A stretch of 64,000 bases of DNA. Source: Fibrobacter sp. UWB10 (GTDB lineage: Bacteria > Fibrobacterota > Fibrobacteria > Fibrobacterales > Fibrobacteraceae). Position 1 is the stretch's first letter; the number at the start of each line of letters is the position of its first letter. The DNA is taken from positions 558,001 through 622,000 of the forward strand of contig NZ_FXUE01000001.1 of NCBI RefSeq assembly GCF_900182935.1, read 5' to 3'. Positions 31,772 to 58,425 of the stretch are shown piece by piece. The position numbers were made by a program, and so were the translations under genes. The notes beneath the pieces were generated by a model. The model was not told where the DNA came from. It saw nothing but the letters and a program-made list of their open reading frames with translations, and searched no databases.

Positions 31772-31788
31772 ACAACTCTCGCCAACAG

Positions 31789-32841: not shown

Positions 32842-32842
32842 A

Positions 32843-33871: not shown

Positions 33872-33879
33872 AAGTCACT

Positions 33880-35034
33880 CTATCTCATTTTCAAAAACTT
33901 AATCATTGAATTAGGCGTTATTTGATCATTCCAAACAAAATACATACACTGATCTATCTCAAACGGCCAACAAAAGCCCAATGCCTTCCGCGCAAAATAA
34001 ATTCCACATATTACCAAGAATATAACATTTTTCACATTTTTCTTTTTTCGCAATTGTTCAAAAGTCAATGCACAAAAATATCCATAAAAAGGCTCAAAGA
34101 AATAACTAAACCGAATAAACAATTCCAGTCCACTTGACATAGACTTAACAAACAAGCCCACAACGAATAAATTGTAGAGAGGAGCAACGTCCATTTTTTT
34201 TCGAGCCTCTCCATCGCCACATTTTGCAAATATAAATAACGGAATTGTCATTACAATCGCAACAATAGGTAATCGCCTTTCTATGGAAGACGCTTGAGAA
34301 GCACCAGTTAGCCACCCCTTCGCATCTGCAGTATATCCAGAAAAACGCGCGGAAAGCAAAACCAAATAATCAAAAATTCCCGCGAGATTGCCCAAAATTT
34401 GCGGATCAAAAGCAATCATCAACAGCATATTTACAACAACAACAGCTTTAAACGACATTATTGGTTTACGAAGCTGTATTAAGAAATAAAGCAACAGCAA
34501 AAGAATCATTGCATAATGACAACCAACTGCGCAAACAAAAAAGATTAGCGCCATGAATTTTCTTCCATCAAGGACACATCTCACCGCAAAGAACAAAAAA
34601 GACAGGCCTGTATACCAACGGATCAAATTTTCCGCATTAACATAGGAAAAGAATATAAAAAAAGGTATCGCAATCGGAAGATATTTTTTATAAGGTCTAA
34701 ACAGATAAAAAGTTGAAACTATAAAGAGGAATGATGAAAAAGATATAACAGACCAATACGGAAGACCCGATTTTGCAAAAATACTCCATATCAAAGTAAA
34801 CAGAGGCTCAAAATCGTCCTGCATTCCATATTTAAAATCGTTGAATGTATAAAAGTATAAGTTCCAGTCAGTTTCACGCCCCCAACGTAAACCTTCTACA
34901 ATGGTAAATATTATTATCGGGAAAAAGGCTAACTTCCAATAATGAGCATCCTTCATTTTTGATTGTAAATAACAAAACAAAAATAAAGACAATGCACACA
35001 AAAAATGCAGGGAAACATATACAGCAGCAATCAT
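33880..35034 (-). CDS. EpsG/Wzy-like polysaccharide polymerase
   Basis: A 384-residue membrane protein with roughly ten to eleven helices and the EpsG-family pattern: IVEGLRWGRETDWNLYFYTF early in the protein, then FEPLF and LIRWYTGLSFLFFA. EpsG/Wzy proteins link repeat units on the periplasmic side. It overlaps the upstream GT2 gene by four bases. AT content is high (sampled line 34441 is about 32% GC), consistent with a horizontally exchanged glycan locus. Confidence 0.82.
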   Translation of the reverse strand: MIAAVYVSLHFLCALSLFLFCYLQSKMKDAHYWKLAFFPIIIFTIVEGLRWGRETDWNLYFYTFNDFKYGMQDDFEPLFTLIWSIFAKSGLPYWSVISFSSFLFIVSTFYLFRPYKKYLPIAIPFFIFFSYVNAENLIRWYTGLSFLFFAVRCVLDGRKFMALIFFVCAVGCHYAMILLLLLYFLIQLRKPIMSFKAVVVVNMLLMIAFDPQILGNLAGIFDYLVLLSARFSGYTADAKGWLTGASQASSIERRLPIVAIVMTIPLFIFAKCGDGEARKKMDVAPLYNLFVVGLFVKSMSSGLELFIRFSYFFEPFYGYFCALTFEQLRKKKNVKNVIFLVICGIYFARKALGFCWPFEIDQCMYFVWNDQITPNSMIKFLKMR

Positions 35035-35924
35035 ACACTAGCCCAAATTCGAACTAATTTATTTTTTATTTTAAACGGGAAAGAAATGCACAAATACAAA
35101 AGCATATTTTGCAAAGCAAGACGTTGCAAACCAGCATTTTTACATCTTGCAACAGCATCTCTCCAGACAATAGTTCTCGCCTCTAGACGACCAATAAAGC
35201 CCAACTTGCGATACAATACAGCGTGTTTACAATAAATATAATTGACAGATTCCATCCAAGAATAAAACTTATTCGTCAATCGATTTGCGTCATTTAAGTC
35301 CACACGGTAAATAGACAAAGCCTCATTTACAAAGAAAAAAGGTGTTTTTTGAGCCAAACGAATCAAAAGTTCGTATTCTTGCCAAAATTTTAATTTTTCA
35401 TCAAAGCCATCGCACAGAACAAGCAGTTTTTTTTCAACAAGAATATTTGAAGTAACCGTACAGATTTCCTTCAAAATTTTTTTCGACATATCGCCTTGCA
35501 ATTCAACATGAGGCAATTCATCGCTAAAAGAAACCCCTTTTTCCGTGATTCTTTCATAACGACGACCACAATAAACCAGTCCATTGTGCTTTTTCTGGAT
35601 CAGACAAACTTGTTTTTCAATCTTTTCTGGCAACCAATAATCATCATCGTCCAAAAAAGCAATATATTCCCCTACCGCTTTTTTTACGCCTTGGTTTCTT
35701 GCATAATTTCCACCTCGGCTTTCATCAGCAGGAATTCGAACATACACAACATTACCTAAAGAGTTGCAATAATCCTCAGTTTCATCAGTTGATGCATCGT
35801 CAACCACAATGCATTCTATATTCTTGTATGTTTGCAATAACACGCTTTCAACAGCTCTTTTTAAAAGAGCACACCGATTCTTAGTCGTAATAATCGCGCT
35901 TACTTTAGGATTGTTGCCGAGCAT
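35031..35924 (-). CDS. Family 2 glycosyltransferase
   Basis: A 297-residue GT-A enzyme: VSAIITTKNRCALLKRAVES at the start, CIVVDDASTDET for nucleotide binding, and the metal-binding FLDDDDYW. A FWQEYELLIRLA segment follows, as in many O-antigen transferases. The C-terminal part is basic and amphipathic, probably membrane-associated. Donor and acceptor are unknown. It is in the ten-gene minus-strand run from 40187 to 30317. Confidence 0.9.
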   Translation of the reverse strand: MLGNNPKVSAIITTKNRCALLKRAVESVLLQTYKNIECIVVDDASTDETEDYCNSLGNVVYVRIPADESRGGNYARNQGVKKAVGEYIAFLDDDDYWLPEKIEKQVCLIQKKHNGLVYCGRRYERITEKGVSFSDELPHVELQGDMSKKILKEICTVTSNILVEKKLLVLCDGFDEKLKFWQEYELLIRLAQKTPFFFVNEALSIYRVDLNDANRLTNKFYSWMESVNYIYCKHAVLYRKLGFIGRLEARTIVWRDAVARCKNAGLQRLALQNMLLYLCISFPFKIKNKLVRIWASV

Positions 35925-35930
35925 GTTGTT

Positions 35931-36911
35931 CTATCTTTTTGACCTATTTCCAATAAACATAGCAGCATGCTTTTGGAGAAATATCGTTGGGTAATATAGC
36001 AAAAATAAAATCACAGCCGCTTTTACAAAAGCAAAGAGAACATTATTAAAGTCGTCAGCAAACGCCGACGAAAAACGACGAGCAACCGCATTTACATAAA
36101 AAAATACACTTCCATGCAGCCCCATGATGACGATTGACCCCGAAGAAAAGATATCAACAAATCTATTTGAAAATTTATCAACAAGCCTGCATAAAGAGCA
36201 AACCATCATTATACCCGCAAAACCTTCTACATAATACAACGCAGGAACTTCGCCAAACTGTAAAGAATGAATAGAAACAGGCCCCATTATTATGTTTAAC
36301 GCAAAAACAACCATTAGAGAAACACAGCCCATAAAAAAATTAATTACGTTCTTTTTGCTAAACAGAACAAACCTTTTAAAGACATTCCCAACATAGAAAA
36401 AAGGATACGCCATAAAACAAGCCCCCAATCCCCAATACAACGGGGAAGGCAGGCAGTAAGCAACAACAACAGTCATTATAAGAATAACATACTGCAGCCA
36501 CATTTTTCCTGACAAAGATACAAAGGCTATCAACCGAACAAAGAAAAGACTGAGCAAAAACCACGATGCCCCTGAATACGAATGTCCACCACCAAACAAA
36601 AAATCTTCAACGGCTTTTTTATGGAACTGAACATCTGATATCAAAAGAAAGTCCATTAAGCAACACAATACATTAAAAAAAATGTATGGGACAACCAATG
36701 ATTTTACATTTTTTTTCAAAAAGCAAAAAAAAGAATCTCTTTTTTTAAATAAATATCCAGACAAAAAGAAGAACAATGGCATATGGAAAGCATAAACAAA
36801 ATTTTTTACATCACATCCATAGCCCTCTGTTGGATAAAAGGCATGGCCAAATACAACTAAATATATTCCAATAGACTTAGCCCAATCAACCCAATTTTCT
36901 CTTATAGTCAT
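35931..36911 (-). CDS. Acyltransferase family 3 membrane protein
   Basis: A 326-residue protein with about ten membrane helices and the Acyl_transf_3 pattern: WVDWAKSIGIYLVVFGHAF with the catalytic-type His, then FHMPLFFFLSGYLF. Such proteins O-acetylate or otherwise acylate surface sugars. It is inside the glycan operon, six bases from the GT2 gene and nine from the WecF-like gene, so a role in modifying the repeat unit is likely. The C-terminus is short and basic. Confidence 0.85.
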   Translation of the reverse strand: MTIRENWVDWAKSIGIYLVVFGHAFYPTEGYGCDVKNFVYAFHMPLFFFLSGYLFKKRDSFFCFLKKNVKSLVVPYIFFNVLCCLMDFLLISDVQFHKKAVEDFLFGGGHSYSGASWFLLSLFFVRLIAFVSLSGKMWLQYVILIMTVVVAYCLPSPLYWGLGACFMAYPFFYVGNVFKRFVLFSKKNVINFFMGCVSLMVVFALNIIMGPVSIHSLQFGEVPALYYVEGFAGIMMVCSLCRLVDKFSNRFVDIFSSGSIVIMGLHGSVFFYVNAVARRFSSAFADDFNNVLFAFVKAAVILFLLYYPTIFLQKHAAMFIGNRSKR

Positions 36912-36920
36912 ACGCGATTC

Positions 36921-38066
36921 TTACGAACAGTCAAATGATGCAAAAAAATTTAACATTCCCTCGTCATACCTATCTAAATTGACCTCATCCACATATGCAT
37001 CATAATTTTTCTTTTGATCATCGATTGACAAATGCGGCTTCCCAGTAAAATCACACAAATCATTTTCTATTGAAAAGAATTTATAGCCAAGTCCACTAAA
37101 AAAAGAATAATTTATTGAATCATTATAAAGATAAACATCAAAACCACTTTTCAAAGCATAACCAATATTACCTGCAGACTGCTGCCTCATATGTCCAAAA
37201 ACAGCTGCACAACAGGTATTTACTAAATTAAAATATTGTTCTCTGCTCATAAAGTTTTCTAAAAATATGGTTTTCACATTTTTGAACTTTAAAACATATT
37301 GTTTCAAGGCCGCTTTATACCTTTCATTTCCACCATAGCTAATCGGAATCAACACTTCAACAATTCGACCAATTTTTTCTATTCTTTCAAGAATATCTAT
37401 ATGATTATTTGTAGGATCTAGACTATTACCAACTAAAATTCTTGGAACAGATAAAGATTCCGGCGTTTTTTTGGGAATAAAGCTTTCAGGCATACTCAAC
37501 GGCATGTACTTAAGCGGAAAATACCTTTTCCCAGGCAAGTTCATCATACTAAACTCAACCGAGAAAACCGTTGAAACCGCAGAAACTTTTTCAAATAGCT
37601 TTCGGTACAGATAATTGTGTACAAAATAAACACCCATAAACAATTTTAAGTATTCCCAAACACTCTCAGAAAATTTTTTTTGAGAATCCAACACCCTCCT
37701 TGTAAGCGGTTTATATAAATCTAACGGCAACATCTTTTTTATTTTGCTATGTACGTCAGAATATATATCCCATCCCCAACAACAAATAAAAACAGTACGT
37801 TGTAATTTAAGCAGATATCGAATATCTATAAATATACTATGTAAAATTACAACACAATCCCTCGAGCTTTGATTTACCTTATCAATCAATTCTTTTTCCG
37901 ATTGGAAAAAAAACACATTTGCATTACGAGTTTTGATGTATTTAATTTCTGGAGTTCTTTGAATGACAAAAAAAGTGGATTCTATCATCCTGTATCTAGC
38001 AAATTGAGCAATTACGCCATCAATAAATTTTTCATCACTACATATGTGGATCGTTTTTTTTATCAT
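36921..38066 (-). CDS. WecF-like (GT56) 4-amino-deoxysugar transferase
   Basis: This 381-residue protein has the key segments of TDP-Fuc4NAc:lipid II transferase WecF: VGNSLDPTNNHIDILERI, VLIPISYGGNERYKAAL, and FGHMRQQSAGNIGYALKSG. WecF adds 4-acetamido-4,6-dideoxygalactose in enterobacterial common antigen. Here the sugar could be the 4-amino-4,6-dideoxyhexose made by the aminotransferase at 29098..30210, which fits the locus. The N-terminal ~150 residues are diverged. Exact sugar is inferred only. Confidence 0.75.
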   Translation of the reverse strand: MIKKTIHICSDEKFIDGVIAQFARYRMIESTFFVIQRTPEIKYIKTRNANVFFFQSEKELIDKVNQSSRDCVVILHSIFIDIRYLLKLQRTVFICCWGWDIYSDVHSKIKKMLPLDLYKPLTRRVLDSQKKFSESVWEYLKLFMGVYFVHNYLYRKLFEKVSAVSTVFSVEFSMMNLPGKRYFPLKYMPLSMPESFIPKKTPESLSVPRILVGNSLDPTNNHIDILERIEKIGRIVEVLIPISYGGNERYKAALKQYVLKFKNVKTIFLENFMSREQYFNLVNTCCAAVFGHMRQQSAGNIGYALKSGFDVYLYNDSINYSFFSGLGYKFFSIENDLCDFTGKPHLSIDDQKKNYDAYVDEVNLDRYDEGMLNFFASFDCS

Positions 38067-38087
38067 ATTTCAGTTCTCTACAAGCAA

Positions 38088-39221
38088 TCAATTCACAATA
38101 ACATTAATCAATTCCGTAAATTTTCTAGTAGTCCCAGCCAAATCAAATTTATTACGAACAATATTTGCTGCAGTTTCAGAAAGATTTATGACAAAAGAAG
38201 CATCTTCATACATATGAACAACAGCTTTTTCAATCGCATCCACATCATCAATACCAACAACACATCCATTCACACCATCTTCAATCATGTCGTCAACAGC
38301 ATCAATCTTGGTGCAAACAACAGGCTTTTTTGCAGCAAAATACTCCGGAACAACAAGTGGCAAACCTTCCCAACGAGAACAAAGGACGGCCACGTCGAAT
38401 AGAGCCAAATATTCGATGGCATGTTTTGTCCAGCCCGTTATCAAGAACGAGTCATTCAAGCCCAAATCATCAATCATTTTTTTTATTTGATCTTGATCGG
38501 GACCATCACCGACAATTATAAAGAACGATTCGGGAATAGCATCTTTTATCTTTCGAGCAGCCTTTACAAAAACATCAGGAGCCTTTTGCTCTGATATTCG
38601 TCCCACCATGCCAACAACATAGGCTTTTTCAGGGATATTCAAAGAGTCCCGAGTCAATTTAGAAGCAGCAATTTTTTTCTCAATTTCTTCAATATCCACA
38701 CCGTTCAAAATCACTTGCAATTTATTTGTTTTGCATATATGATTTTGCAACGCAGACTCTTTCTCGTAATTGGAGACACAAATAATTGTATCAGTAAAAA
38801 AAGCAAAGACTTTTTCTATCAAACGATAGAAAAGCTTTTTCTTATTGCTCATTCGCATATTGAACGCCCAGCTATGAGCATTATAAAGGACCTTGGTTCC
38901 GGAACCAATCGCAGCTAATCGTCCAACAGCACCAGCGATGCTGCTATTACAGTAAACAACATCCGGTTTATACTTCCTAATCAGTTTGCGAGTTTCCCAT
39001 GCCGGTTTCAATATTTTCAAAACACTTATGGACCGTTCCATGCCAACTTTTTCTATGGCACTAAAATACGGAGCAAATCGTTCTTTCTCATAAGCATTTG
39101 AGCAAACAAGAATACAATCAAACTTCGACTTATCAAGATGTTTGACAAGTTCTTCAATATATACCGGAACACCACCAGGATACGCCTGGGCAACAAACAT
39201 TATCTTGGTGCGTGTCGTCAC
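38088..39221 (-). CDS. Family 4 (GT-B) glycosyltransferase
   Basis: A 377-residue GT-B enzyme of the GT4 type: AQAYPGGVPVYIEELVKHLD at the N-terminus, VGMVGRISEQKAPDVFVKAA starting the donor domain, and the nucleotide-sugar site CSRWEGLPLVVPEYFAAKKP. It starts at a GTG that directly follows the epimerase stop, with GGAG nine bases upstream; an internal ATG seven codons later is an alternative. The pattern resembles EpsD/PssF-like transferases, but the sugar is unknown. Confidence 0.88.
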   Translation of the reverse strand: MTTRTKIMFVAQAYPGGVPVYIEELVKHLDKSKFDCILVCSNAYEKERFAPYFSAIEKVGMERSISVLKILKPAWETRKLIRKYKPDVVYCNSSIAGAVGRLAAIGSGTKVLYNAHSWAFNMRMSNKKKLFYRLIEKVFAFFTDTIICVSNYEKESALQNHICKTNKLQVILNGVDIEEIEKKIAASKLTRDSLNIPEKAYVVGMVGRISEQKAPDVFVKAARKIKDAIPESFFIIVGDGPDQDQIKKMIDDLGLNDSFLITGWTKHAIEYLALFDVAVLCSRWEGLPLVVPEYFAAKKPVVCTKIDAVDDMIEDGVNGCVVGIDDVDAIEKAVVHMYEDASFVINLSETAANIVRNKFDLAGTTRKFTELINVIVN

Positions 39222-40187
39222 CTACACCAACTCCTTTCCTTCGCAATCCTTATACCAATCCTTAAACGCCTCTTCAAGCGTGTAAGAAATCGGATAATTC
39301 CTTGCGAGTTTCTGGCCGTCAATATTCGTACTAACCATAAGTTTTTTCACACGAGCAGGGCAAATACCTAGTCCCAAGCCACCAAGTACACCACAAATGG
39401 TAGCAGCTGCCATCATGGGTTTCTTGGGTATATACGGAATATGACGGCTCATGCCAGTTGCTTTGAGCATGGTATTAGCAATTTGTTCAATGGTAAATGA
39501 GGGATAGTAGCAACAGTTATGCAACTGAATGCGATCTGCATTCCCATTTTCAGCCATAGCCAACATTGCACGAACAAGGTCCTTCACATAAATGCAAGCC
39601 TTGATTGTATCTTTGCGGCCGGCATAAGCAAACTTATGACTCCTTAAGCCTCTATAGAGACGGGTCATATTACCGTTTTCACCTGTACCGAACACAATTC
39701 CCGGACGGACGATAGAGAGTCTGCGGTCCTTACTTTCGGCAGCCCATTCACGGTGGATTTTTTCGGCCACCAATTTAGAGATGCCGTAAGGCGTGTTAGG
39801 GGTAGGCAGCGTTTCTTCGGTCTTTAACTCTTCAGCCGCTCCGTACGGAGCAATGCTGCTAGTAAAAACAATGTTTTCAATGTTGTGTTTGCGTGCGAAT
39901 TCGCAAACATTTTCTGCACCACGAATGTTCGTTTCAAAGTACGCATGATCAGGATGACCTGGCGTGCGATGGATTGCCGCGAAATTAAATATTAAGGTAC
40001 TTTTACCAAATTCACCCTGTAAACTGATCGGGTTGCGCACATCGACTCTTTGAGAAAGAGCGGATCCATCTGCCAAAAGGTCTGCAATAACAATTTTTGC
40101 ATCTGGGTATCTTGAACGAAGCAAATTCGCCGTATGCGAACCAATAAAACCGCAACCACCAAATATGATAAAAGTATCGAACTGCAT
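39222..40187 (-). CDS. NAD-dependent nucleotide-sugar epimerase/dehydratase
   Basis: A 321-residue extended short-chain dehydrogenase: FIIFGGCGFIGSHTANLL (Rossmann GxxGxxG), SSIAPYG, and the catalytic YGISK. It should epimerise, reduce or dehydrate a nucleotide sugar for the glycan. No similarity strong enough to name the product is visible. I chose ATG 40187; a TTG three codons upstream is too close to the GAGGAG site. It is the first gene of the ten-gene run that ends with wzx. The 196 bases upstream to the Wzi gene hold no strong terminator, so transcription from the Wzi gene may continue into the operon. Confidence 0.87.
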   Translation of the reverse strand: MQFDTFIIFGGCGFIGSHTANLLRSRYPDAKIVIADLLADGSALSQRVDVRNPISLQGEFGKSTLIFNFAAIHRTPGHPDHAYFETNIRGAENVCEFARKHNIENIVFTSSIAPYGAAEELKTEETLPTPNTPYGISKLVAEKIHREWAAESKDRRLSIVRPGIVFGTGENGNMTRLYRGLRSHKFAYAGRKDTIKACIYVKDLVRAMLAMAENGNADRIQLHNCCYYPSFTIEQIANTMLKATGMSRHIPYIPKKPMMAAATICGVLGGLGLGICPARVKKLMVSTNIDGQKLARNYPISYTLEEAFKDWYKDCEGKELV

Positions 40188-40383
40188 ATTATACAATTCT
40201 CCTCTCGCAGGGAACTCCGCACCGAGGTCCGTTCAACAAAATAACACTGTCACACAAGATCATCGCAAGTTTATAATAACTAAAAGAACATTCTCCACAT
40301 AATTTAATAAATACATAAAGAAAGAGACAAAAAACTTTCCTGTATAGAGCTATTTCCACTAAAGAGTATAGACGCCCTCTTTT

Positions 40384-41856
40384 TTACCACTTAAATCCAG
40401 CTCTAGAGTATATTTTCTTATCATCAACAAAGGTCCATTCTAACGCAAAATTGACAAATCGGCCCTCATAACCCAAAATTGGGGTTAGCGAATATTGCAT
40501 TTTGGCTCCATGGAGAAAACGTTTTTTCACATTCGCATGATTCGAAGGATTCGGATCATTCAAGGAACTTCCTGCATCATTTCCTTTCCAGAACCACTTC
40601 TGATGAAGTCCCGCAACCCATCGACTGTCAACACGTGAATAAGCAAGCCATTCAATAGTCTGACTATTCGGTCCTCCCTGATTTCCCAAGGGTACCTCCA
40701 GGTGCGCCAACTGAGCCGTATTGCTATTAAAATGCGTATATACATAAGGTTCAACTCGAGCATATTCGACTAGGGTTCCTAATTCAAGCTTATGAGACTT
40801 CCACTCAAAATCATGACCTATCTGGGCGCCCACCATCCAAGCCCATTTGGATTGAACATCCTCATTTTTTATGAGTTCCGCCGGGCTCTGAAAATCATCC
40901 ATAAAAAATTCTGTATAAATTCGAGCCATATTGAACAATCTGTAGTTCAAATCAAAAGACAGCGCCCCGTTATTGGAACTTTCAGTATAATTCCCTTTTT
41001 CCATGAATAGCGGAACAATCGGAACAAATAGCCACACATCGTTATCATCATAAACAACCTGAAGTTCACTCATTCCTATAATCAAATTACCGAAGTTCAG
41101 CTCATAACGATGTCCATAAAGATTGCGGGCTTCTTTATTTCCTTCATTAACATTCCCCTTATAAATACGCAAATCACCGTAAACGGAAACCACTGTGAGA
41201 GGCCCAACTTGTAAATCGACCGACATTGAATTGAATGGTAGCGAGAATTGGTTTAACGCCAAATTATTATAATAGCCTGGGCCCCAATGCATCACGTCAC
41301 GTCCGACATCGAACCGGGCAAAGCCCATATTCAAAGCCAAATGTCCTCGATAGCGAGCATAGCTCACATATTCCAACCCATCATTACTGTCTTCTTCTTG
41401 CAAGTCAATATATTCCCCATCATACGATTTGGGATTTTGAGAAGAATGACTTTCAGAATAAATTCGTGCGTCTAAAACAAACTCCAAGGAATCAATATAT
41501 CCTCTCAAAAAAAGGCCCCCATCGATTCCCGGCCAAATTGTATCGCCAAGGGCTTCCCCACCGCGATAATCGATTCCACCGACAAGACTTGCAGCAAGAA
41601 AAGTACGATCGGATTGATGCAGAAACAGGGCATCTTTTTCAGACGATTTCGCATTCTTACGCCAAGAAGAATCACGCTGCGGATAATGAAATTCCTGTCT
41701 TAACGAAGAAGTCGTTAACCGATGAAAGTCAAACAGCATTGGAGCCGTTTGAAGGAGTTTAAGATTGTACCGTTCTGGCGAAATAACTGGAGATGCAAAA
41801 GAAGACGCCGATATGCACAAAAAAAGGATTAATAAATATCTATAAATCATCGTCAT
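40384..41856 (-). CDS. Wzi-like capsule assembly outer-membrane protein
   Basis: The 490-residue protein has a signal peptide (cleavage near SSFA) and a large beta-barrel. The segment FDVGRDVMHWGPGYYNNLAL followed by NQFSLPFNSM matches the Wzi/capsule-assembly family, which anchors capsular polysaccharide at the outer surface. The C-terminus ends in aromatic and basic residues (SRAGFKW), usual for barrels. It lies at the head of the polysaccharide locus, which suggests that the glycan made here is surface-attached as capsule or slime. TTTG-N19-TAAATTGA upstream is a promoter candidate. Confidence 0.8.
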   Translation of the reverse strand: MTMIYRYLLILFLCISASSFASPVISPERYNLKLLQTAPMLFDFHRLTTSSLRQEFHYPQRDSSWRKNAKSSEKDALFLHQSDRTFLAASLVGGIDYRGGEALGDTIWPGIDGGLFLRGYIDSLEFVLDARIYSESHSSQNPKSYDGEYIDLQEEDSNDGLEYVSYARYRGHLALNMGFARFDVGRDVMHWGPGYYNNLALNQFSLPFNSMSVDLQVGPLTVVSVYGDLRIYKGNVNEGNKEARNLYGHRYELNFGNLIIGMSELQVVYDDNDVWLFVPIVPLFMEKGNYTESSNNGALSFDLNYRLFNMARIYTEFFMDDFQSPAELIKNEDVQSKWAWMVGAQIGHDFEWKSHKLELGTLVEYARVEPYVYTHFNSNTAQLAHLEVPLGNQGGPNSQTIEWLAYSRVDSRWVAGLHQKWFWKGNDAGSSLNDPNPSNHANVKKRFLHGAKMQYSLTPILGYEGRFVNFALEWTFVDDKKIYSRAGFKW

Positions 41857-49878: not shown

Positions 49879-49917
49879 AATGTGTAGTGTGAGATGAAAC
49901 ATTCCACACCACACATT
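49879..49917. repeat. Hairpin repeat related to the one at 1121, after cysS
   Basis: AATGTGTAGTGTGAGATG (49879-49896) pairs with CATTCCACACCACACATT (49900-49917) at 15 of 18 positions over a 3-base loop. Like the element after the pseudouridine synthase gene, it consists of ATGTG/GTGAGATG words and lies nine bases after a stop codon. Confidence 0.65.
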
Positions 49918-49938
49918 GTATAGTTTATGTTCAAAGGC

Positions 49939-49975
49939 GAAGGTCCCGAGCGAAAAGTGTCGGGCCTTCTTTTTT
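49939..49975 (+). terminator. Intrinsic terminator of cysS
   Basis: GAAGG-CCCGA pairs with TCGGGCCTTC, with one bulged T, over a 10-base loop and is followed by six T. The T run merges into the TATATTAG box of the next gene. Confidence 0.85.
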
Positions 49976-49987
49976 ATATTAGGCATT

Positions 49988-50644
49988 ATGAATTTCAAGC
50001 CTTTCGTCTTCAATTCCTTTGGCGTGAACGGTTTCGTTTTAAGTAACGACGCCGGCGATGCCATTCTGATTGACCCGAGTGCCGGAAGCGAGCAAGAGGA
50101 ACAAGCCCTCGCCCGCTACATTGAGCAGAACAAACTTACGGTAAAGCACCTGCTGAATACGCACCTGCACTTGGACCATGTGCTAGGCAATGCATTTATC
50201 GCCAACAAATACGGCGTGCAACCCGAGGCTCACGAAGAAGACGCCTTCTTGCTTGACCTGCAGGAAGAACAGAGCCAGATGTTCGGCCTCCCGCTGCGTG
50301 AACTATCGCCCGGACTCGGCAACTACCTTGCCGAGGGCGATGCCGTCGAGGTGCCCGGCATCAAGCTGCAGGTAATTCACGTGGCTGGGCACTCCCCCGG
50401 CGGCATCGCGTTTTACTGCGAAAACCCGGGCGAAGTGAATGGACAGAAGGATGTTCCGCCACTCCTGTTCCCGGGCGACATTCTGTTTGCAGGCAGCCGC
50501 GGACGCAGCGATTTATTCGGTGGCGATGACCACGCACTTGTCACAGGCATCAAGAATAAATTGATGACACTCCCGAAAGACACGATCGTATTCCCCGGGC
50601 ACGGGCCGATGACGACGATTGCCGATGAGAGGCGCTGGTATTAA
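49988..50644 (+). CDS. Metallo-beta-lactamase-fold hydrolase (glyoxalase II-like)
   Basis: A 218-residue protein from the ATG at 49988. The metal-binding motif THLHLDH (58-64), AGHSPGGIAFY, FPGDILFAG and FPGHGPMT are in the order seen in hydroxyacylglutathione hydrolase-like enzymes. The family hydrolyses thioesters such as lactoylglutathione or related compounds; short members like this have uncertain substrates. A TATATTAG box ends five bases before the ATG, so the mRNA may be leaderless. Its stop overlaps the next start (TAATG). Confidence 0.87.
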   Translation: MNFKPFVFNSFGVNGFVLSNDAGDAILIDPSAGSEQEEQALARYIEQNKLTVKHLLNTHLHLDHVLGNAFIANKYGVQPEAHEEDAFLLDLQEEQSQMFGLPLRELSPGLGNYLAEGDAVEVPGIKLQVIHVAGHSPGGIAFYCENPGEVNGQKDVPPLLFPGDILFAGSRGRSDLFGGDDHALVTGIKNKLMTLPKDTIVFPGHGPMTTIADERRWY

Positions 50645-51843
50645 TGGGTCGAATCGGGTGGATTGACGAATTCAAGGGATTCGTGTTGTTGCTCGTATGC
50701 CTGTACCATGTGGAGCAATCGTTCCCTCAGGCGCAAATGGGAATGCTGCATCTGAGTGCGCTTCGTATGTCAGCATTTTTCTTCATTTCAGGAATGCTTT
50801 TCAGCACACGCCGTTTTCCCAATTTCAAAAGCTACTTCATTCACAAAACTAAAGTTTTACTCATCCCCTACATTCTGCTTTCGCTGTTATTCTTGGCGTT
50901 AGATCCGGTCGTGTACAACTTCGACTTATTCCCGAAAGCACCACGCATGACAGTGATGAATATACACCCACATATCGCTAGCGTTTGGGATTACATCTAC
51001 TGGAATCTGGCGAAGATTTTTGTGGCTGGGAAATCTTCGATTGGGTCGGGGCCGCTGTGGTTTGTGTTCACGCTGTATTCAGTAAGCCTGATGTTCTATG
51101 GCTTGCAGAAGCTGGCGAATTTGATAGCAAAGAAGCTGAACATAATTCAGCACGACAAGAAGGCAAGAAAGGCAGATGCAGAGCGTCCTCAGCATGACAT
51201 GAAGGCAAAAATCGCGATTGCAGTCACGGCAGTCGCAAGTCTTGCGGGCGGGTGGTTGCTGTACAAGAATCATATTCGCTTGCCGCTGGGAATCGAGCGA
51301 GATTTGACGGTGCTATTCTTCTTCACTTGCGGATGGCTGAGCAAAGAACCTATTCGCAATAAGCTCTGCGGGAAAGGAAAAAAACGCATTCCCTGGAGTC
51401 TTGTAGTTGCCACCTCCATCACGACATTCATTCTCTACGCCGCATTCGAAATTCCGGACCCGAATTTCAGCATCATGAACAACACCCTCGGAAAATCACT
51501 CCCGATATTCGTCGCCAGTTCTTTCTTCGGTATTGCAGGCCTTGTAACCGCCTTTGTCGCAGCCGACAAGATTCCAAACATCGGGCCCATTCGCACACTC
51601 AAGGGAATCCTCCGCAACATTTCAAGGAACGCGCTCGTGATTCTTGCGGTTCACTGGTATATATTGCTGGTAATGCGTCTGCTTTTCCGCGGGACTTTCA
51701 ACAAACCAGGCATTGCATACATTTCTATCGCCATCGTAGCGACTGGCGTTGTCGCCGCCATTCCATTATTCCGATGCAAACTTTACAAGCTGCTCGGTAA
51801 GCAGCCTGCGAGCGTGCGCGAAAGTTTGAATATTCGCGATTAA
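50644..51843 (+). CDS. Acyltransferase family 3 membrane protein
   Basis: The 399-residue protein has about ten membrane helices and the Acyl_transf_3 core: IGWIDEFKGFVLLLVCLYHVEQS with the conserved His, then MSAFFFISGMLF. Members transfer acetyl or other acyl groups to sugars at the membrane. It is coupled to the hydrolase gene (ATG overlaps its stop by one base). It converges on the patatin gene with a four-base overlap of stop codons (TTAA). A link to the lipid operon on the other strand is possible but not shown. Confidence 0.85.
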   Translation: MGRIGWIDEFKGFVLLLVCLYHVEQSFPQAQMGMLHLSALRMSAFFFISGMLFSTRRFPNFKSYFIHKTKVLLIPYILLSLLFLALDPVVYNFDLFPKAPRMTVMNIHPHIASVWDYIYWNLAKIFVAGKSSIGSGPLWFVFTLYSVSLMFYGLQKLANLIAKKLNIIQHDKKARKADAERPQHDMKAKIAIAVTAVASLAGGWLLYKNHIRLPLGIERDLTVLFFFTCGWLSKEPIRNKLCGKGKKRIPWSLVVATSITTFILYAAFEIPDPNFSIMNNTLGKSLPIFVASSFFGIAGLVTAFVAADKIPNIGPIRTLKGILRNISRNALVILAVHWYILLVMRLLFRGTFNKPGIAYISIAIVATGVVAAIPLFRCKLYKLLGKQPASVRESLNIRD

Positions 51844-52685
51844 ATTTCCAAGAAAGCTTTCAAGTCGTCCATGCGGCGCTTAGCCATTTCAACGCCATGC
51901 TCGTACGACTCGTTCATCTTTTCCATGTTCGTATCAAACTGGTCGCACAAATCAATCACAGGTCGAATCAAGAAGAGTTTGCCTTCTTTTTCGAGTTTTT
52001 CCATTTGCACGAACATTTTTTCGTAACGCTTTAAGCGAATCATGAGCGCTCGGAACATGTCCGGATATTTGCGCTTATACATCGGATTCAAAATCGCACG
52101 ATACTTGCGGAAGTCCGTCACCGCTTCGCCCGGATAATGCGTCGAAATAGCAACCACCTTATCGCAGCCCTTTTCAAAAGCACGCAGGTAAGGAATCGGA
52201 GCCGTAATGCAACCGTCGGCATAATGCTTGCCATCAATTTCTGCCATCGGGAAAATCATCGGCAGGGCGCAACTGGCGCTAATCAAATCGAGCAAGCGTT
52301 TTTTTTCGTTCTTTTCGCTCTTGAATTCGGCACGGCCCGTTTCGCAACACGTCAGTCCGATTTCGCATTCGATTTTAGAATTATGGAACGCTTCAAAGTC
52401 AAACGGCATTTCGCCATCGGCAGCCAGATAGTTCAACGCATGGAATTCCTTTTGGATTCCAATGAACTTGCTCGCCCACTTTTTGCCTTTCTGCAAGCGC
52501 GTCGGGAGCACGATAAAACGCAAGCGACCTTGCTGGCGCGTAACAAAGTTCACCGCCGCATGGGCTCCGGCAGAAACACCTGCCACGTAATTAAAATCAA
52601 TATCTTCGTCAAGCCAGGTGTCAATCACACCTGCGCTGAACATCGTCTGACGAGAACCGCCCTCTAACACCAACCCAGTCTTCAT
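51840..52685 (-). CDS. Patatin-like phospholipase
   Basis: A 281-residue patatin with the Ser-Asp dyad: glycine-rich LVLEGGSRQTMFSAGV as oxyanion loop, nucleophile Ser38 in GVSAGA, and Asp in YADGCI. The YjjU group of patatins is similar. It hydrolyses lipid acyl esters. It is last in a six-gene minus-strand operon (ACP, ketosynthase, reductase, dehydratase, acyltransferase, patatin), overlapping the acyltransferase gene by four bases; here it may release or remodel the lipid product (inference). Confidence 0.88.
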   Translation of the reverse strand: MKTGLVLEGGSRQTMFSAGVIDTWLDEDIDFNYVAGVSAGAHAAVNFVTRQQGRLRFIVLPTRLQKGKKWASKFIGIQKEFHALNYLAADGEMPFDFEAFHNSKIECEIGLTCCETGRAEFKSEKNEKKRLLDLISASCALPMIFPMAEIDGKHYADGCITAPIPYLRAFEKGCDKVVAISTHYPGEAVTDFRKYRAILNPMYKRKYPDMFRALMIRLKRYEKMFVQMEKLEKEGKLFLIRPVIDLCDQFDTNMEKMNESYEHGVEMAKRRMDDLKAFLEI

Positions 52686-53380
52686 GCCACAACCTCTTCG
52701 GGCGTTTCAGCCGCAACCGGGAGCGGAGTCACTTCAGTCTTGCCCAACGCTTGCTGTTTAAGACTCCAGACTTTCTGTCTGAAATATTCACTGCGTTCGG
52801 CCAAGTGTTTCGAAGAAGGAATTCCCTTCACGCGTTCAATCTTTTCAGGTTCGCTAACAACAATCTGCGTGCGATGACCACGCTTATAAATGCCATCGAT
52901 ACCCACCGCAATCACCGGAGCGCCGGTACTGCGAGCAAGGAACGCAAAACCCGTCTTGAATTCATTCAGCAAGCCGTCATAGCGGCACTTGCCTTCGGGG
53001 AATATAATCACCGAATTGCCTTTTTCCAGTTCATGCTTTGCAATCAAGGCCCATTCGGTATCCAAGTTAAAGCGGTCGCAAGGAATCACGCATTTTACGC
53101 GAGTCAGAGCCCAGCTAAAATGCGGGTCTTCAATTTGGTCTTTCGCCACCACGATGCTTCTATTGTGAAAAAAGATTGCAAGCATCATGAGGGGGTCCCA
53201 CATGCTCGTATGATTCGCAATAATTATCGAAGGCGTCTTAAGGCGCGGAGACTTCACCGTTTCACCGGCAAAAGTCACCTTCGGGCGGTTCCAAACAAGC
53301 AAATAAACACGCACGGTGTAGATCACTACCACCATGACGAACTGCATGAAAAGTTCAAACAGCGGGTTCTTCTTTTTCAT
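52682..53380 (-). CDS. PlsC-type 1-acylglycerol-3-phosphate acyltransferase family protein
   Basis: A 232-residue membrane-associated acyltransferase with the PlsC blocks: NHTSMWDPL (NHxxxxD), CDRFNLDTEWALI, and FPEGKC. One N-terminal helix anchors it to the inner membrane. Besides lysophosphatidate acylation, enzymes of this fold transfer acyl chains in lipid A and aryl-polyene clusters, and the ketosynthase operon context supports a dedicated acyl transfer role. It overlaps neighbouring genes by four bases and one base. The C-terminal tail (EVTPLPVAAETPEEVVA) is outside the domain. Confidence 0.87.
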   Translation of the reverse strand: MKKKNPLFELFMQFVMVVVIYTVRVYLLVWNRPKVTFAGETVKSPRLKTPSIIIANHTSMWDPLMMLAIFFHNRSIVVAKDQIEDPHFSWALTRVKCVIPCDRFNLDTEWALIAKHELEKGNSVIIFPEGKCRYDGLLNEFKTGFAFLARSTGAPVIAVGIDGIYKRGHRTQIVVSEPEKIERVKGIPSSKHLAERSEYFRQKVWSLKQQALGKTEVTPLPVAAETPEEVVA

Positions 53381-53826
53381 TATTTTCCGAGAGATTCTTT
53401 CGGGATGCTCGTAAAGGTCAGGGCGCCCTTCGCGTGAACGTTGCCATTCACTTTCACAATGCAGTCAAAGCCGACCAACACACCGCCTTCCTTCGTCTTC
53501 TTCACGGAAATTTCAAGCTGGTCGCCAGGAATCACCGGCTTCACGAACTTGAATCCATCAATCTTCAAAAGCACGTAGAGATTCTTTTCCAAATCTTCGG
53601 CAGGCTTTTCGATTACAAGCGAACAAAGCTGAGCGCAGCTTTCCACAATGAGCACGCCCGGCATAATCGGAGTGCCCGGGAAGTGCCCCATAAAATAGGG
53701 TTCATTCACGCTCACATTCTTAATGCCCACAGCAGATTCATTCGGCACAAGTTCCGTGACCTTTTCAATCATCTGGAACGGCGGACGCTGAGCAATCTTT
53801 TCGCTGATTTCGTAAATATTCATCAT
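53380..53826 (-). CDS. FabZ-like 3-hydroxyacyl-ACP dehydratase
   Basis: A 148-residue hot-dog-fold dehydratase. His48 in GHFPGTPIMPGVLIVE and Glu62 form the catalytic pair; length and the hot-dog helix (VESCAQLCSLV) match FabZ. It removes water from beta-hydroxyacyl-ACP to give the trans-2-enoyl form. In this operon there is no enoyl reductase, so the double bonds would remain, as in polyene synthesis. It is translationally coupled to the acyltransferase (one base overlap) and to the reductase (four bases). Confidence 0.92.
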   Translation of the reverse strand: MMNIYEISEKIAQRPPFQMIEKVTELVPNESAVGIKNVSVNEPYFMGHFPGTPIMPGVLIVESCAQLCSLVIEKPAEDLEKNLYVLLKIDGFKFVKPVIPGDQLEISVKKTKEGGVLVGFDCIVKVNGNVHAKGALTFTSIPKESLGK

Positions 53827-54554
53827 AGAGAGAGACCTCCATCGAGCACGAACACCTGGCCAGTCACGTAGGCGAACTGGTCAGAAGCAAGCGCAGACAC
53901 AATGTTTGCGACTTCGTCGGCAGAACCAAAGCGCTTCAGAGGAATCTTTTCAAGGTAGCCCTTGCGAGTTTCTTCGGGAATAGCTTCGATCATTTCGGTA
54001 GCGATAAAGCCCGGAGCCACGGCATTCACGCGAATACCAAAGCCACCAAGTTCTTTAGCCAGCGTCTGAGTCAAGGAGTTCACGGCACCCTTGGTAGCGC
54101 TGTAAACAGCCTGGCCAGCGAGAGCAAACTTCGAAGACACGGAGCTCATGTTGATAATCACGCCGGACTTCTGCTTGTACATTTTCACAGCTACCTGCTG
54201 AGCGCAATAGAAGTAACCCTTCACGTTCAGGTCGAAGCACTTGTCCAAGGTTTCCGGATTCATCATCATCAGGTATTCGTCGCGCACAATACCGGCATTG
54301 TTCACCAGCACGTCGATGCGACCGTAAGCCTTAAAGATTTCGCGAATCATGACCTTCACTTGAGAAAGGTCGGCGACATTTGCCTTGTAAATCATGCCGT
54401 CGCCACCTTCGGACTTAATCTGGTCCAAGGTCTGCTGGGCAGCCTCGTCGGAACTGGAGTAGTTCACTACAACTGTATAACCATCGCGAGCAAGGCGCAA
54501 AGCACAAGCCTTACCGATACCCTTAGAAGCTCCTGTTACCAAAGCTACTTTCAT
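53823..54554 (-). CDS. FabG-like 3-oxoacyl-ACP reductase
   Basis: A 243-residue classical short-chain dehydrogenase: cofactor motif TGASKGIGKA (7-16), NNAG (86-89), and the active site Ser138/Ser140, Tyr151, Lys155 in INMSSVSSKF and YSATKGA. It reduces beta-ketoacyl-ACP with NADPH. The protein could also serve the general fatty acid pathway, but the operon with ACP, a KS pair and a dehydratase suggests a dedicated role. It is 24 bases from the ketosynthase gene. Confidence 0.93.
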   Translation of the reverse strand: MKVALVTGASKGIGKACALRLARDGYTVVVNYSSSDEAAQQTLDQIKSEGGDGMIYKANVADLSQVKVMIREIFKAYGRIDVLVNNAGIVRDEYLMMMNPETLDKCFDLNVKGYFYCAQQVAVKMYKQKSGVIINMSSVSSKFALAGQAVYSATKGAVNSLTQTLAKELGGFGIRVNAVAPGFIATEMIEAIPEETRKGYLEKIPLKRFGSADEVANIVSALASDQFAYVTGQVFVLDGGLSL

Positions 54555-54578
54555 ATTCTAGCTCCTTCTACCTAAACG

Positions 54579-56975
54579 CTATTTTCCGAAAACGACGGCG
54601 CTATAAGAGCCACCAGCCGCAAAGGAGATTACCAAAATTTTCTTGAGGTTTGCAGATTCCACATTCTTTGCAGAAACAGAGCCATCTGCAGCCACAAAGT
54701 AAGCGTTATCGTTTGCCAGTTCACCACTCAACAGGAGAGTTGCTTCGGCAGCGGCCAAAGCGGCAGACCCCGCACGACCTTCACCGGTGCGTTCCTTGAC
54801 TTCGAAGAGCGGCATCGTCGCAAGCTTTTCGCCAAACACGCGCTTGAGAGCACCCTTTTCAATATCGTCAATCTTCTTGCAGCCATTGGCAAAACCGCAA
54901 ACGGCATCAATTTCATTGGCAGAAATTCCGGCATCAGCAAGGGCGTCGGCAATAGCCTTATCCAAAGCTTCGTCAGAACCAACCAATTTGCCGAACTTCA
55001 CGTTCTTGCGGCCATGACCGAAACCGAGTGCGTAGCAGTAAACCTTTGCATCACGGCTCTTGGCATAAGATTCATCTTCGAGCATGATCGACACGCTACC
55101 GTCGCCAACCACAAAGCCTTCAGAATCGGAATACGGAGCAACCACATCGTTTGCAGCCACACCGAGCTTCTGGGCAAATTCCGTAATAATCGGCAGGTTT
55201 TCGTCGGTACCGGTAGCCATCATGACTTTTTCTTGGCCATCATGAATCACGTTCATGGAATAGCCAATGCTGTCGAGGCCCGAAAGCGGACCGGTGGTAA
55301 TGGTAACGCCGTAGCCCTTGATACCGGAGCAAATCGACAGGTAACCACCAGCAGCATTATAAACCGTGTGCGGGAACTTGAAGGCAGAACCGCCGGCATT
55401 GCCGAGTTCAGCAATCAGTTCTTCAAAATCGTAAGTTGCGCCAAGACCACCTTCGCTTGTACCCACGATAATACCGATATCCATGGCATTTTCGTCGGAC
55501 ACCTTGAAGTTCGCATCTTGGAGTGCACGCATACCCGAAACAGTCTGGAGCTGGCCCAGATTATCGAGCTTGCGGTAGAAAGCCATCTTGATGCCGAGTT
55601 CCTTGTAGTCATCGAGTGCAATCGTAGAATGCACCGAAGCGGACTCAGGCTTCTTGCCTGCATTCACAGCTTCAAGATAGGCAGCCTTGCTATTACCGAG
55701 CGGAGACACAATTCCCACACCCGTCACAGCAATCTTACAGTCCTTAGCGGACTGAGCAGACACATTTCCCGATTCCTTCGAGAAGACGATAGCCGCATTC
55801 GTGCCACCGAAAGCCACATTGTTGCTCAAGACGCTCTTGAGTTCCTTATGGCGAGCCTTGTTCTGCACGAAGTCCATGTCGCCCACTTTTTCCTTGAGGG
55901 CGGCAGACTGTTCTTCGCTATACGGGAAGGTCGGAAGAACGGTATCCGTGGTAAGAGCCTTGATGCTAAAGACAGCTTCAATGGCACCAGCGGCACCCAA
56001 GCAATGGCCCGTAAGCACCTTGGTAGAACTTACGCTCACCGTCGGATTTTCTTCGCCGAAGTAGGCCTTGAAAGCGGTCATTTCGGCATTGTCATTCTTA
56101 CCCGTGCCCGTACCATGAGCATTGATGTAACCGATGTCGGTTTTAGCAATGCCGGAGTTCTTGACAGAGCGGTTGATGGCTTCTTTCAGGCAAAGACCAT
56201 CTTCACGCGGGGCGGTAATGTGGTTTGCATCGCTCGTGACGCCAGAACCAAGCACTTCGCAGTACTGCTTGGCAGCACGCTTCTGCGCATGTTCGTAAGA
56301 TTCCACAATCACGATACCAGCACCTTCGCCAAGCGTAATGCCGTTGCAACGGTTAAACGGAGAGCATCCGTTTTCATCGAGTGCATGGAGCGAAAGGAAT
56401 CCGGAATACGGGACCGAAGCAAAAGAATCGGCGCCGCCCGCAATCACGACATCGGCCTTACCGGCGCGAATCAAGTCGCAAGCGACCGCAATCGAAATTG
56501 TACCAGCAGCACAAGCATTCGCTACGTTAGTGACAATGCCACCAGCCCCGCAAGTTTCAGCCACCTGAGACGCAATAGATGCAATCGGCATCTTTGCGAT
56601 TTCAGAAGCGTCGCGACCATGTTGATGATACTGTTCAATCGAAAGAACGCCGCCCACACAACTTCCGATAACCACGCTCACACGTTGGTCGTCGTTAAAG
56701 TTTTTGAGTCCGGCATCGGCTAGAGCTTCGTTTGCCGCCTTGATGCAAAGTTTCGAGACGCGGTCCTTTTCTTCGGGCGCATCAATTTCATCAAGGGAAT
56801 CGCACTTGACTTCGGCAGCCAAGTCCGCATAACAGTTCACAGTATCAACAGAAGTGGTTTTATGAATGCCGGAAACAGATTCCAGCGCACTTTTCCAAGC
56901 TTCTTCAACATTGTTACCGACTGCGCAAATTACGCCAAGGCCGGTAACTACACAACGCTTATCGTCAGATGTCAT
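54579..56975 (-). CDS. Fused ketosynthase plus catalytically dead ketosynthase (KS-CLF-like)
   Basis: This 798-residue protein contains two ketosynthase domains in one chain. The first (1-405) has all catalytic residues: Cys154 in VANACAAGTIS, His287 in NAHGTGTG, His324 in LTGHCLGAAG. The second (412-798, starting KIAVTGVGIVSPLGNSKAAY) has lost them: Pro563 stands where Cys is expected (TTGPLSGLD), GFANGCK replaces the first His motif and TGEGRAG the second. This pair of active and dead ketosynthases is the arrangement of chain-length-factor systems in type II polyketide and aryl polyene synthesis, here as one polypeptide. It lies between the ACP and FabG genes. Confidence 0.9.
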   Translation of the reverse strand: MTSDDKRCVVTGLGVICAVGNNVEEAWKSALESVSGIHKTTSVDTVNCYADLAAEVKCDSLDEIDAPEEKDRVSKLCIKAANEALADAGLKNFNDDQRVSVVIGSCVGGVLSIEQYHQHGRDASEIAKMPIASIASQVAETCGAGGIVTNVANACAAGTISIAVACDLIRAGKADVVIAGGADSFASVPYSGFLSLHALDENGCSPFNRCNGITLGEGAGIVIVESYEHAQKRAAKQYCEVLGSGVTSDANHITAPREDGLCLKEAINRSVKNSGIAKTDIGYINAHGTGTGKNDNAEMTAFKAYFGEENPTVSVSSTKVLTGHCLGAAGAIEAVFSIKALTTDTVLPTFPYSEEQSAALKEKVGDMDFVQNKARHKELKSVLSNNVAFGGTNAAIVFSKESGNVSAQSAKDCKIAVTGVGIVSPLGNSKAAYLEAVNAGKKPESASVHSTIALDDYKELGIKMAFYRKLDNLGQLQTVSGMRALQDANFKVSDENAMDIGIIVGTSEGGLGATYDFEELIAELGNAGGSAFKFPHTVYNAAGGYLSICSGIKGYGVTITTGPLSGLDSIGYSMNVIHDGQEKVMMATGTDENLPIITEFAQKLGVAANDVVAPYSDSEGFVVGDGSVSIMLEDESYAKSRDAKVYCYALGFGHGRKNVKFGKLVGSDEALDKAIADALADAGISANEIDAVCGFANGCKKIDDIEKGALKRVFGEKLATMPLFEVKERTGEGRAGSAALAAAEATLLLSGELANDNAYFVAADGSVSAKNVESANLKKILVISFAAGGSYSAVVFGK

Positions 56976-56993
56976 AATACGAAAAGGGTAAAA

Positions 56994-57233
56994 TTAAGCC
57001 TTATGGGATTCGATGTAAGCAGCGATCGTATCGATGCTCTGGAAGTTTTCCTTGGCAACGCCCGTCATGGAAACGCCAAAGTTGGAATCCACGAAGGAGA
57101 TGATTTCAAGGGAATCCACAGAATCAAGGCCGATTTCTTCGCCAAAAAGCGGAGTATCGAACTGGAGCACGTCGCCATCGACGCCGAGATCAGACATAAA
57201 GAAGGCCTTGAGTTTTTCTTTCATTTCGTTCAT
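56994..57233 (-). CDS. Acyl carrier protein
   Basis: A 79-residue acidic ACP with the phosphopantetheine site GLDSVDSLEI, Ser38 carrying the prosthetic group. It differs from the usual housekeeping ACP (EFxxxIxDEDAE is absent) and is the first gene of the ketosynthase operon, 18 bases from it. It should carry the growing chain of this system. AAACGAGG precedes the ATG. Confidence 0.93.
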   Translation of the reverse strand: MNEMKEKLKAFFMSDLGVDGDVLQFDTPLFGEEIGLDSVDSLEIISFVDSNFGVSMTGVAKENFQSIDTIAAYIESHKA

Positions 57234-57351: not shown

Positions 57352-58425
57352 CTAAAAAGCCTGACGAACGTAGAAGGACAGGCCTAAGTGGTCAAAATCG
57401 ATCCACGAAAAGTCTGCACGAGCAAACAAATTCTGTTTTAGATTCAAGCCCAAAAGTGCGCCAGCACCAATGGACCGGTGCCAATCGTTACGTACAAGTT
57501 CACTAAAATAGCGTCCTGATTTTCCACCTTCGAAAAACAAATGCCCGCCCAGGCGCCACCAAATATACTGTCGAACCTCGGCCTGCATGATAACAGCCTG
57601 ATTATCGCCAAAATACAGGCTTTCTACCCCTCGGAAACGGCAAATGCCATCAGGGCCCGCAAGCATGTCAAAGGGAACATCGCCATCGGCACGTTGCCAC
57701 AAGAAGCCAACAGCCATGGTCGTATTCGGGGAAAAACTGGAATAACCGCGCAAATCAAGCGATTCCACGTCGAACGTATAGTCGCCCAAACGGTCACTAT
57801 AGAACATCTGCTGCCATTGGGCCAAAAATCCATGTCGTGTCCAGTTAATGTTGTCGCGGGTATCCACGCCCAACAAATAGCCCGCACCGTTTCGCCAACC
57901 GGAATGAGCATCGGGCAAGTCGGTAATTTCGCCAATATCAAAATCAATTTCGGTATATTCTGCATGGACTTCGACACCATACTTGAGCGCCCGAGGAAGC
58001 CCTATTCTCGATTCAATACGCGTGCCATACTGGAACTTTTTGCGGTTGAAGTTCGTGAATACATCGATATCGGGATTGTTGCCGCGACCATAATAACCGG
58101 CCACCCAGTCCTGGTACTTGAGCAAGCCCCAAATACTTACTTGATCATGGAATAAATAATAGTATGGTTCCAACTGCAACTGCAGCTGTCCGCGAGTTGA
58201 GCCGTAAGCCGTGAGTCCAATTTCAGGGACATTGCCACCCGATTCGTCGGGCTTCAAGAACAGGAGCGCCATCACACCAATCTGGAATTCCGTCTCTTCG
58301 GTGTAGCCAAGAATAGGCACCACAGAATAACGCTGAAAATTGTCTCCAGACGCCTCTTCAGTTGCCGCAGCGACAAACGCCACGAAAGCAATCAAAAGTA
58401 ATCCTATTTTTTTCAACAAATCCAT
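57352..58425 (-). CDS. BamA/Omp85-like outer-membrane beta-barrel protein (no POTRA)
   Basis: The 357-residue protein has a signal peptide (MDLLKKIGLLLIAFVAFVAA) and a C-terminal barrel with the bacterial surface antigen pattern: CRFRGVESLYFGDNQAV (the FRG of the RGF-like motif), VRQYIWWRLGGHLFFEGG, and last strand GLSFYVRQAF ending in Phe. No POTRA domains are present. Similar proteins sit in lipid-export or outer-membrane assembly clusters. It lies 118 bases upstream of the ACP gene on the same strand, so it could be the first gene of the same transcription unit. A TATATTTG box ends seven bases before its ATG. Confidence 0.78.
   Translation of the reverse strand: MDLLKKIGLLLIAFVAFVAAATEEASGDNFQRYSVVPILGYTEETEFQIGVMALLFLKPDESGGNVPEIGLTAYGSTRGQLQLQLEPYYYLFHDQVSIWGLLKYQDWVAGYYGRGNNPDIDVFTNFNRKKFQYGTRIESRIGLPRALKYGVEVHAEYTEIDFDIGEITDLPDAHSGWRNGAGYLLGVDTRDNINWTRHGFLAQWQQMFYSDRLGDYTFDVESLDLRGYSSFSPNTTMAVGFLWQRADGDVPFDMLAGPDGICRFRGVESLYFGDNQAVIMQAEVRQYIWWRLGGHLFFEGGKSGRYFSELVRNDWHRSIGAGALLGLNLKQNLFARADFSWIDFDHLGLSFYVRQAF

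Follow-up and report, generated by a model that had tools for sequence, protein, structure and literature searches.

What would a compact bacterial operon make when its central protein joins an active ketosynthase (KS) to a catalytically dead one on a single chain? The question is raised by six minus-strand genes at positions 51840-57233 of a 64,000-nucleotide stretch of the Fibrobacter sp. UWB10 genome (contig NZ_FXUE01000001.1, positions 558,001 to 622,000), which we refer to as the window and whose internal numbering we use throughout. The answer we favour, with somewhat more than even confidence, is that these genes encode a type II (discrete-enzyme) acyl-lipid synthase built on a KS and a chain length factor (CLF), the unsaturated chain of which would be partly reduced by a flavoprotein. 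Statements made here about whole genomes rest on targeted searches.

The operon and its single-chain ketosynthase

The original prediction had described six open reading frames from the DNA letters alone, and all six are present with the tight coupling it reported. The genes for the acyl carrier protein (ACP) and the fused KS-CLF are separated by 18 bases, those for the fusion and the ketoreductase (KR) by 24 bases, and the later genes overlap by 4, 1 and 4 bases. In order of transcription, they are:

56994..57233, minus strand: ACP, 79 aa (PF00550, E 2.7e-7; GLDS phosphopantetheine site)
54579..56975, minus strand: KS-CLF fusion, 798 aa (PF00109 and PF02801 each matched twice; active-site columns, tree and fold match to 6riw)
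53823..54554, minus strand: FabG-like KR, 243 aa (TIGR01830, 271 bits, slightly below cut-off)
53380..53826, minus strand: FabZ-type 3-hydroxyacyl-ACP dehydratase, 148 aa (PRK00006, 136.7 bits against a cut-off of 113)
52682..53380, minus strand: PlsC-type acyltransferase, 232 aa (PF01553, E 1.1e-21; NHTSMWD and FPEGKCR motifs)
51840..52685, minus strand: patatin-like acyl hydrolase with a DUF6363 tail, 281 aa (PF01734 and PF19890)

Pfam assigns to these products a PP-binding domain, the N- and C-terminal ketoacyl-synt domains twice, an SDR/KR domain, a FabA/FabZ-type domain, a PlsC-type domain and a patatin domain with DUF6363; the identity of FabZ also follows from NCBIfam PRK00006, above its cut-off, and an ApeI-like model matches the same protein below cut-off only. 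The characteristic motifs are intact in the ACP (GLDSVDS), the KR (SSVSS...YSATK), FabZ (GHFPG...E), PlsC (both motifs listed above) and patatin (GVSAG), and the KR has FlxB-type similarity. By sequence, the ACP, KR and FabZ together with the KS-CLF make up a condense-reduce-dehydrate cycle. The Pfam and NCBIfam domain assignments uphold the claim that a ketoreductase and a dehydratase are encoded with no enoyl reductase among the operon genes, and the PF01553 match and motifs do the same for a lipid acyltransferase of the PlsC type. Starter-unit enzymes had been reported missing, and neither FabH nor an AMP (adenosine monophosphate) ligase is encoded in the operon.

The fusion protein consists of an active KS half (about residues 1-405) and a dead CLF half (about residues 410-798). 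Aligned with E. coli FabF and FabB, the fusion shows Cys155, His287, His324 and Lys319 in its first half; the second half, said to lack the catalytic Cys and both His, indeed presents Pro563, Phe695 and Glu732 at these positions and keeps the Lys alone. An active-site alignment spanning Fibrobacter, Treponema, Anaeroplasma, Lachnospiraceae and Lachnospira eligens shows the same pattern across the family. The KS triad is kept in 10/10 members examined, and the CLF triad is dead at the Cys position in 10/10 members and at the His positions in all 9 members whose sequence reaches them, the relatives having Phe and Glu at the His positions and Pro, Ala or Ser in place of the Cys. In a tree of 50 domains, the KS halves form one clade (support 100/100) outside the FabF clade (100/92), the second halves form another (91/95), and a branch supported at 96/94 sets every active KS sequence apart from every CLF sequence; the deep order among KS-CLF types is not resolved by this tree. 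A grouping of the first domain with housekeeping FabF and of the second with active KS proteins had been raised as an alternative, as had a genome devoid of other fab genes. The tree places the KS half apart from FabF and the second half with CLFs, and two FabF genes lie outside the operon in the UWB10 genome.

The AlphaFold2 model of the fusion (predicted local distance difference test, pLDDT, 74; predicted template modelling score, pTM, 0.78) has a sole full-length fold match in the PDB, the PfaC KS-CLF didomain 6riw (template modelling score, TM, 0.74; root mean square deviation, rmsd, 7.6), and the remaining PDB fold matches listed are single KS subunits. The proposed likeness to PfaC is therefore borne out, 6riw being the closest structure by fold. 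Residues, tree and fold agree on an active KS and a dead CLF in one polypeptide, and its likeliest mode of action is that of a KS-CLF pair within a single chain.

Carriers and the flavoprotein partner

Of 37 Fibrobacter genomes, 23 carry fused orthologs at 78-100% identity, the fusion of Fibrobacter succinogenes RUG13981 being 99.9% identical to that of UWB10. Further relatives are found in a Treponema metagenome-assembled genome (MAG; 67% identity), an Anaeroplasma MAG (60%), six Lachnospiraceae MAGs (49-51%) and Lachnospira eligens ATCC 27750 (60%), where the gene lies on a 627-kb plasmid. Because KR (64-77%) and FabZ (64-86%) are this similar between phyla, their conservation suggests that the operon may have spread by horizontal transfer; MAG contamination is possible for carriers known from a single MAG. 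The core of ACP, KS-CLF, KR and FabZ is common to Fibrobacterota, Bacillota and the Treponema MAG, its gene order is kept in all sufficiently long loci, and an ACP ortholog adjoins the fusion in nearly every locus. PlsC is found in Fibrobacter and Lachnospiraceae operons and patatin in Fibrobacter operons only; the Lachnospiraceae operons add FabD and a fused AccD/AccA carboxyltransferase, and that of L. eligens adds FabD, AccD and PlsX. In a subset of Fibrobacter, the operon is followed in one run by MlaE, an ATP-binding cassette (ABC) ATPase, MlaD and a lipoprotein. PlsC or PlsX and the Mla neighbours suggest a lipid product.

A flavodoxin-fold flavoprotein of the azoreductase/ene-reductase type (FMN_red/Flavodoxin_2), with an invariant CX2CX2CX7C motif, tracks the fusion. 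Its gene adjoins the operon in L. eligens, in Treponema and in every Lachnospiraceae locus that extends to that side, and several Fibrobacter also have it nearby, at a distance of no more than a few kb. In UWB10 it is unlinked (contig 4, 200747-201499, minus strand), and for this reason the original prediction, which had the operon parts right, missed a conserved partner; the other fusion-positive Fibrobacter without a linked copy encode one at a separate genomic site. Close orthologs are present in 23 of the 23 fusion-positive Fibrobacter genomes and in 2 of the 14 fusion-negative ones, these two being 74% and 81% complete. The nearest solved sequence, at weak similarity, is that of the flavone ene-reductase FLR (7d38), and the fold of the flavoprotein most resembles that of azo-, quinone and indigo reductases. 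Gut FLR hydrogenates C=C bonds with reduced flavin mononucleotide (FMN) (PMC7862272). FLR and the azoreductases are the best solved relatives of the flavoprotein, but they act on flavones and azo dyes. The conserved genes beside the unlinked copy, for a 134-aa protein and for ribosomal L13, were judged to be ordinary context.

In the mechanism that we propose, malonyl-ACP would be supplied by the host FabD and acetyl-CoA carboxylase in Fibrobacter and by the operon copies in Lachnospiraceae, and would undergo decarboxylative condensation at the KS cysteine, with the CLF closing the tunnel and setting chain length. Successive KR and FabZ reactions would leave C=C bonds, some of which the flavoprotein might remove by hydride transfer to the conjugated enoyl chain, if it does not tune the redox state in some other way. 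The PlsC-type enzyme, or PlsX in L. eligens, appears well placed to transfer the chain to a glycerolipid, which PlsC, or a route via PlsX, would accomplish by esterification. Patatin could recycle or proof-read the acyl chain, and in some Fibrobacter the Mla-type system of the same gene run could move the lipid. We consider it likely that the product is a lipid-bound acyl chain, and lean slightly towards its being at least partly polyunsaturated. Direct action of the flavoprotein on the growing conjugated chain, as an ene-reductase, is a more tentative suggestion, which we would sooner expect to prove wrong than right.

Several observations weigh against this proposal. Neither PlsC nor patatin lies beside the Treponema and L. 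eligens operons. The Fisher p of 5e-8 for fusion and flavoprotein overstates their co-occurrence within Fibrobacter, which goes back to a small number of independent events (on a FabF tree for the genus, 2-3 on branches with good support); because of this, the strongest evidence for the partnership is the neighbourhood conserved across phyla. The FLR match spans the FMN-binding half only (E 1e-6) and the fold is common to many quinone and azo reductases, and this makes ene-reduction of an acyl-ACP conjectural. The confidence of the fusion model is moderate, at the pLDDT and rmsd to 6riw given above. Finally, Fibrobacter might rely on a housekeeping enoyl reductase supplied in trans; in the UWB10 genome the FabH model has no match, FabK gives sub-cutoff matches only and no FabI ortholog was found, FabV not having been searched for.

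In a second reading, the product is a fully unsaturated polyene, a pigment or membrane antioxidant made in aryl-polyene-like fashion from a non-aromatic starter and esterified to lipid, and the role of the flavoprotein is limited to protecting or recycling redox cofactors. The presence of KS-CLF, KR and FabZ without an enoyl reductase in the operon fits such a product, as does the failure to detect FabI, FabK and FabH in four carrier genomes, whereas the conservation of a dedicated reductase-type flavoprotein with the system does not, nor do the lack of aryl polyene accessory genes and the different type of CLF. We regard a fully unsaturated polyene as possible, at a probability of about one in three.

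Known systems and neighbouring genes

Literature searches returned no description of this operon system, the subscription literature lying mostly outside their coverage. The original prediction had tied it to aryl polyene clusters, which do resemble it in combining a KS and a CLF with KR, dehydratase, ACP and a PlsC-like acyltransferase, again without an enoyl reductase. The tie does not hold at closer range. ApeC is a half-size CLF with a single thiolase fold (PMC8358021), whereas the operon CLF is full-size, at about 390 aa, and fused. AMP ligase starters, ApeR, ApeP/ApeI and LolA/MMPL/DUF3261 characterize aryl polyene clusters; none of them lies in or beside the operon, and most are found on contig 4 of UWB10 (214000-233000), in a canonical aryl polyene-type cluster unlinked to the operon. 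That locus encodes an AMP ligase/ApeI-like protein, a glycosyltransferase, LolA, MMPL, DUF3261, a KS, an ApeP-like protein, a KR and a further KS. Its KS matches ApeO (6qsp) at 4e-64, while 6qsp is not among the best 60 matches of the operon KS. Shared enzyme classes and the FlxB-type similarity of the KR are what could make the operon a member of a canonical aryl polyene cluster, or a split part of the aryl polyene pathway of this genome; membership is largely ruled out by the separate locus, the KS matches and the placement of the KS halves in different clades, and we give this explanation hardly any credence.

The PfaC KS-CLF of omega-3 polyunsaturated fatty acid synthases is alike in having a KS and a full-size CLF on one chain, an arrangement as an intramolecular pseudo-dimer that the fold match suggests for the fusion too (TM 0.74, on a model of pLDDT 74), and its chains are also destined for lipids. 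The PfaC system differs in being a type I multidomain synthase with tandem ACPs, dehydratase domains on the chain, PfaB and the PfaD reductase, whereas the operon otherwise encodes discrete single-domain proteins and its KS half is nearest in sequence to FabF-type synthases, not to type I enzymes. Aromatic type II polyketide synthases (PKSs) of the actinorhodin type share an active KS with a dead full-size CLF, and the fusion agrees with type II KS-CLF pairs in its intact Cys-His-His KS, its lost CLF triad and the grouping of its second half with CLFs in the tree. In those systems the two subunits are encoded by separate genes, the CLF has Gln at the Cys position, cyclases are present and FabZ is absent. 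The Gln of actinorhodin-type CLFs drives malonyl priming; it is not conserved in the fusion, which has Pro there (Ala or Ser in relatives), and the operon includes FabZ and no cyclase. Bacterial type II fatty acid synthases are alike in their FabG-, FabZ- and FabF-like parts and in having a lipid acyltransferase, but the operon pairs its KS with a dead partner in place of a homodimer, lacks FabH, FabI and FabK, and has a KS half in its own clade apart from housekeeping FabF. Celluxanthenes (yellow affinity substance) share polyene-type chemistry in anaerobic fibre degraders; identity with them is ruled out because they are made by an iterative type I PKS with a KASIII pair and an AMP ligase (PMC12144888).

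Other KS-CLF arrangements were observed along the way. A relative within the phylum has, on its contig 7, two adjacent distant KS-CLF fusions (6589-10380 and 10377-12710 of locus L057), one of which begins with a B12-binding radical SAM part at its N terminus. Genes for KR, FabD, dehydratase and PlsC-like proteins lie close by, possibly for unusual lipid chemistry. A plasmid of Streptomyces sp. NBC_00876 encodes a 788-residue fusion (5974-8340) with His at the CLF Cys position, in a reducing type II cluster; KS-CLF fusions may therefore have arisen more than once. The small plasmid OX335249 of the honeybee bacterium Apilactobacillus kunkeei carries an actinorhodin-like KS, a CLF-like gene and a benzoate-CoA-ligase-like gene.

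Immediately upstream of the operon, the window contains a further gene:

57352..58425, minus strand: predicted outer-membrane barrel, 357 aa (Omp85 matched weakly, at E 0.0023, short of the cut-off)

The barrel had been put forward as a delivery partner. Its position 118 bases upstream on the same strand, often repeated in other Fibrobacter loci, is what favours an operon that supplies, by way of the barrel, a glycan of the cell surface or a component of the outer membrane. Set against this, many orthologous operons have no adjacent barrel, and Gram-positive bacteria carry the operon, which excludes outer-membrane delivery as its core function. Paralogs, moreover, occur in fusion-negative genomes, and the barrel was rejected as a core part of the operon; a second paralog is present in UWB10 itself (contig 3, 23428-24438). 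We hold a surface-glycan or outer-membrane role to be very unlikely. The convergent genes at 49916-51843 (MBL fold and Acyl_transf_3) were likewise considered as operon parts, and are treated as neighbours because they are kept only in the closest Fibrobacter loci. Elsewhere in the window, positions 23837-41856 hold a polysaccharide locus with a UDP-galactopyranose mutase, an ATP-grasp pair, a DegT aminotransferase, a flippase, glycosyltransferases, and EpsG-like and Wzi-like genes.

Fatty acid synthesis in carriers and significance

Several relatives appear to lack any other FabF-type synthase, a point that went unseen in the original prediction. In four Lachnospiraceae genomes (loci L043, L044, L046 and L049) no FabF-type synthase was found besides the fusion, nor were FabH, FabK or a FabI ortholog, FabV not having been searched for. 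Two sister genomes (loci L045 and L047) have FabH, FabF and FabK together at one place, and the Lachnospiraceae carriers are MAGs of unstated completeness, in which one missing contig could hide all three. FakA, which serves the use of exogenous fatty acids, was found in all these Lachnospiraceae genomes, and these carriers may therefore take up fatty acids.

Such genomes give some ground for a third reading, a CLF-containing synthase of ordinary saturated or monounsaturated membrane fatty acids in which the flavoprotein is the enoyl reductase, accessory in Fibrobacter and the main system in some Lachnospiraceae. It would account for the fusion as the only FabF-type synthase detected there, for the FabD and fused AccD/AccA that these operons carry, and for the flavoprotein at every such locus that includes the flank. 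FakA and the FabF genes that Fibrobacter keeps elsewhere count against it, and the loss of one contig from a MAG could explain the absences; we judge it unlikely. A bolder version, more doubtful still, holds that in the Lachnospiraceae clade the KS-CLF system, with its own FabD, carboxyltransferase and flavodoxin-fold enoyl reductase, is the sole de novo acyl-chain synthase, shared between gut phyla. If true, this would be a fatty acid synthase with a chain length factor that dispenses with FabH and all classical enoyl reductases.

What draws attention to the system is its spread among gut phyla, its flavoprotein partner and the potential lack of another synthase in some carriers. Under the reading we favour, the operon would represent a type II KS-CLF system that makes lipids, differs from the aryl polyene systems and extends over gut and rumen phyla, with the cultured human gut species L. 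eligens among its carriers. Chain-length control could be studied simply with the single-chain KS-CLF, which needs no heterodimer assembly. The conserved flavoprotein hints that enoyl reduction may have a route not recognised so far, and some carriers, which seem to have no classical fatty acid synthase, raise the question of where their lipids originate.

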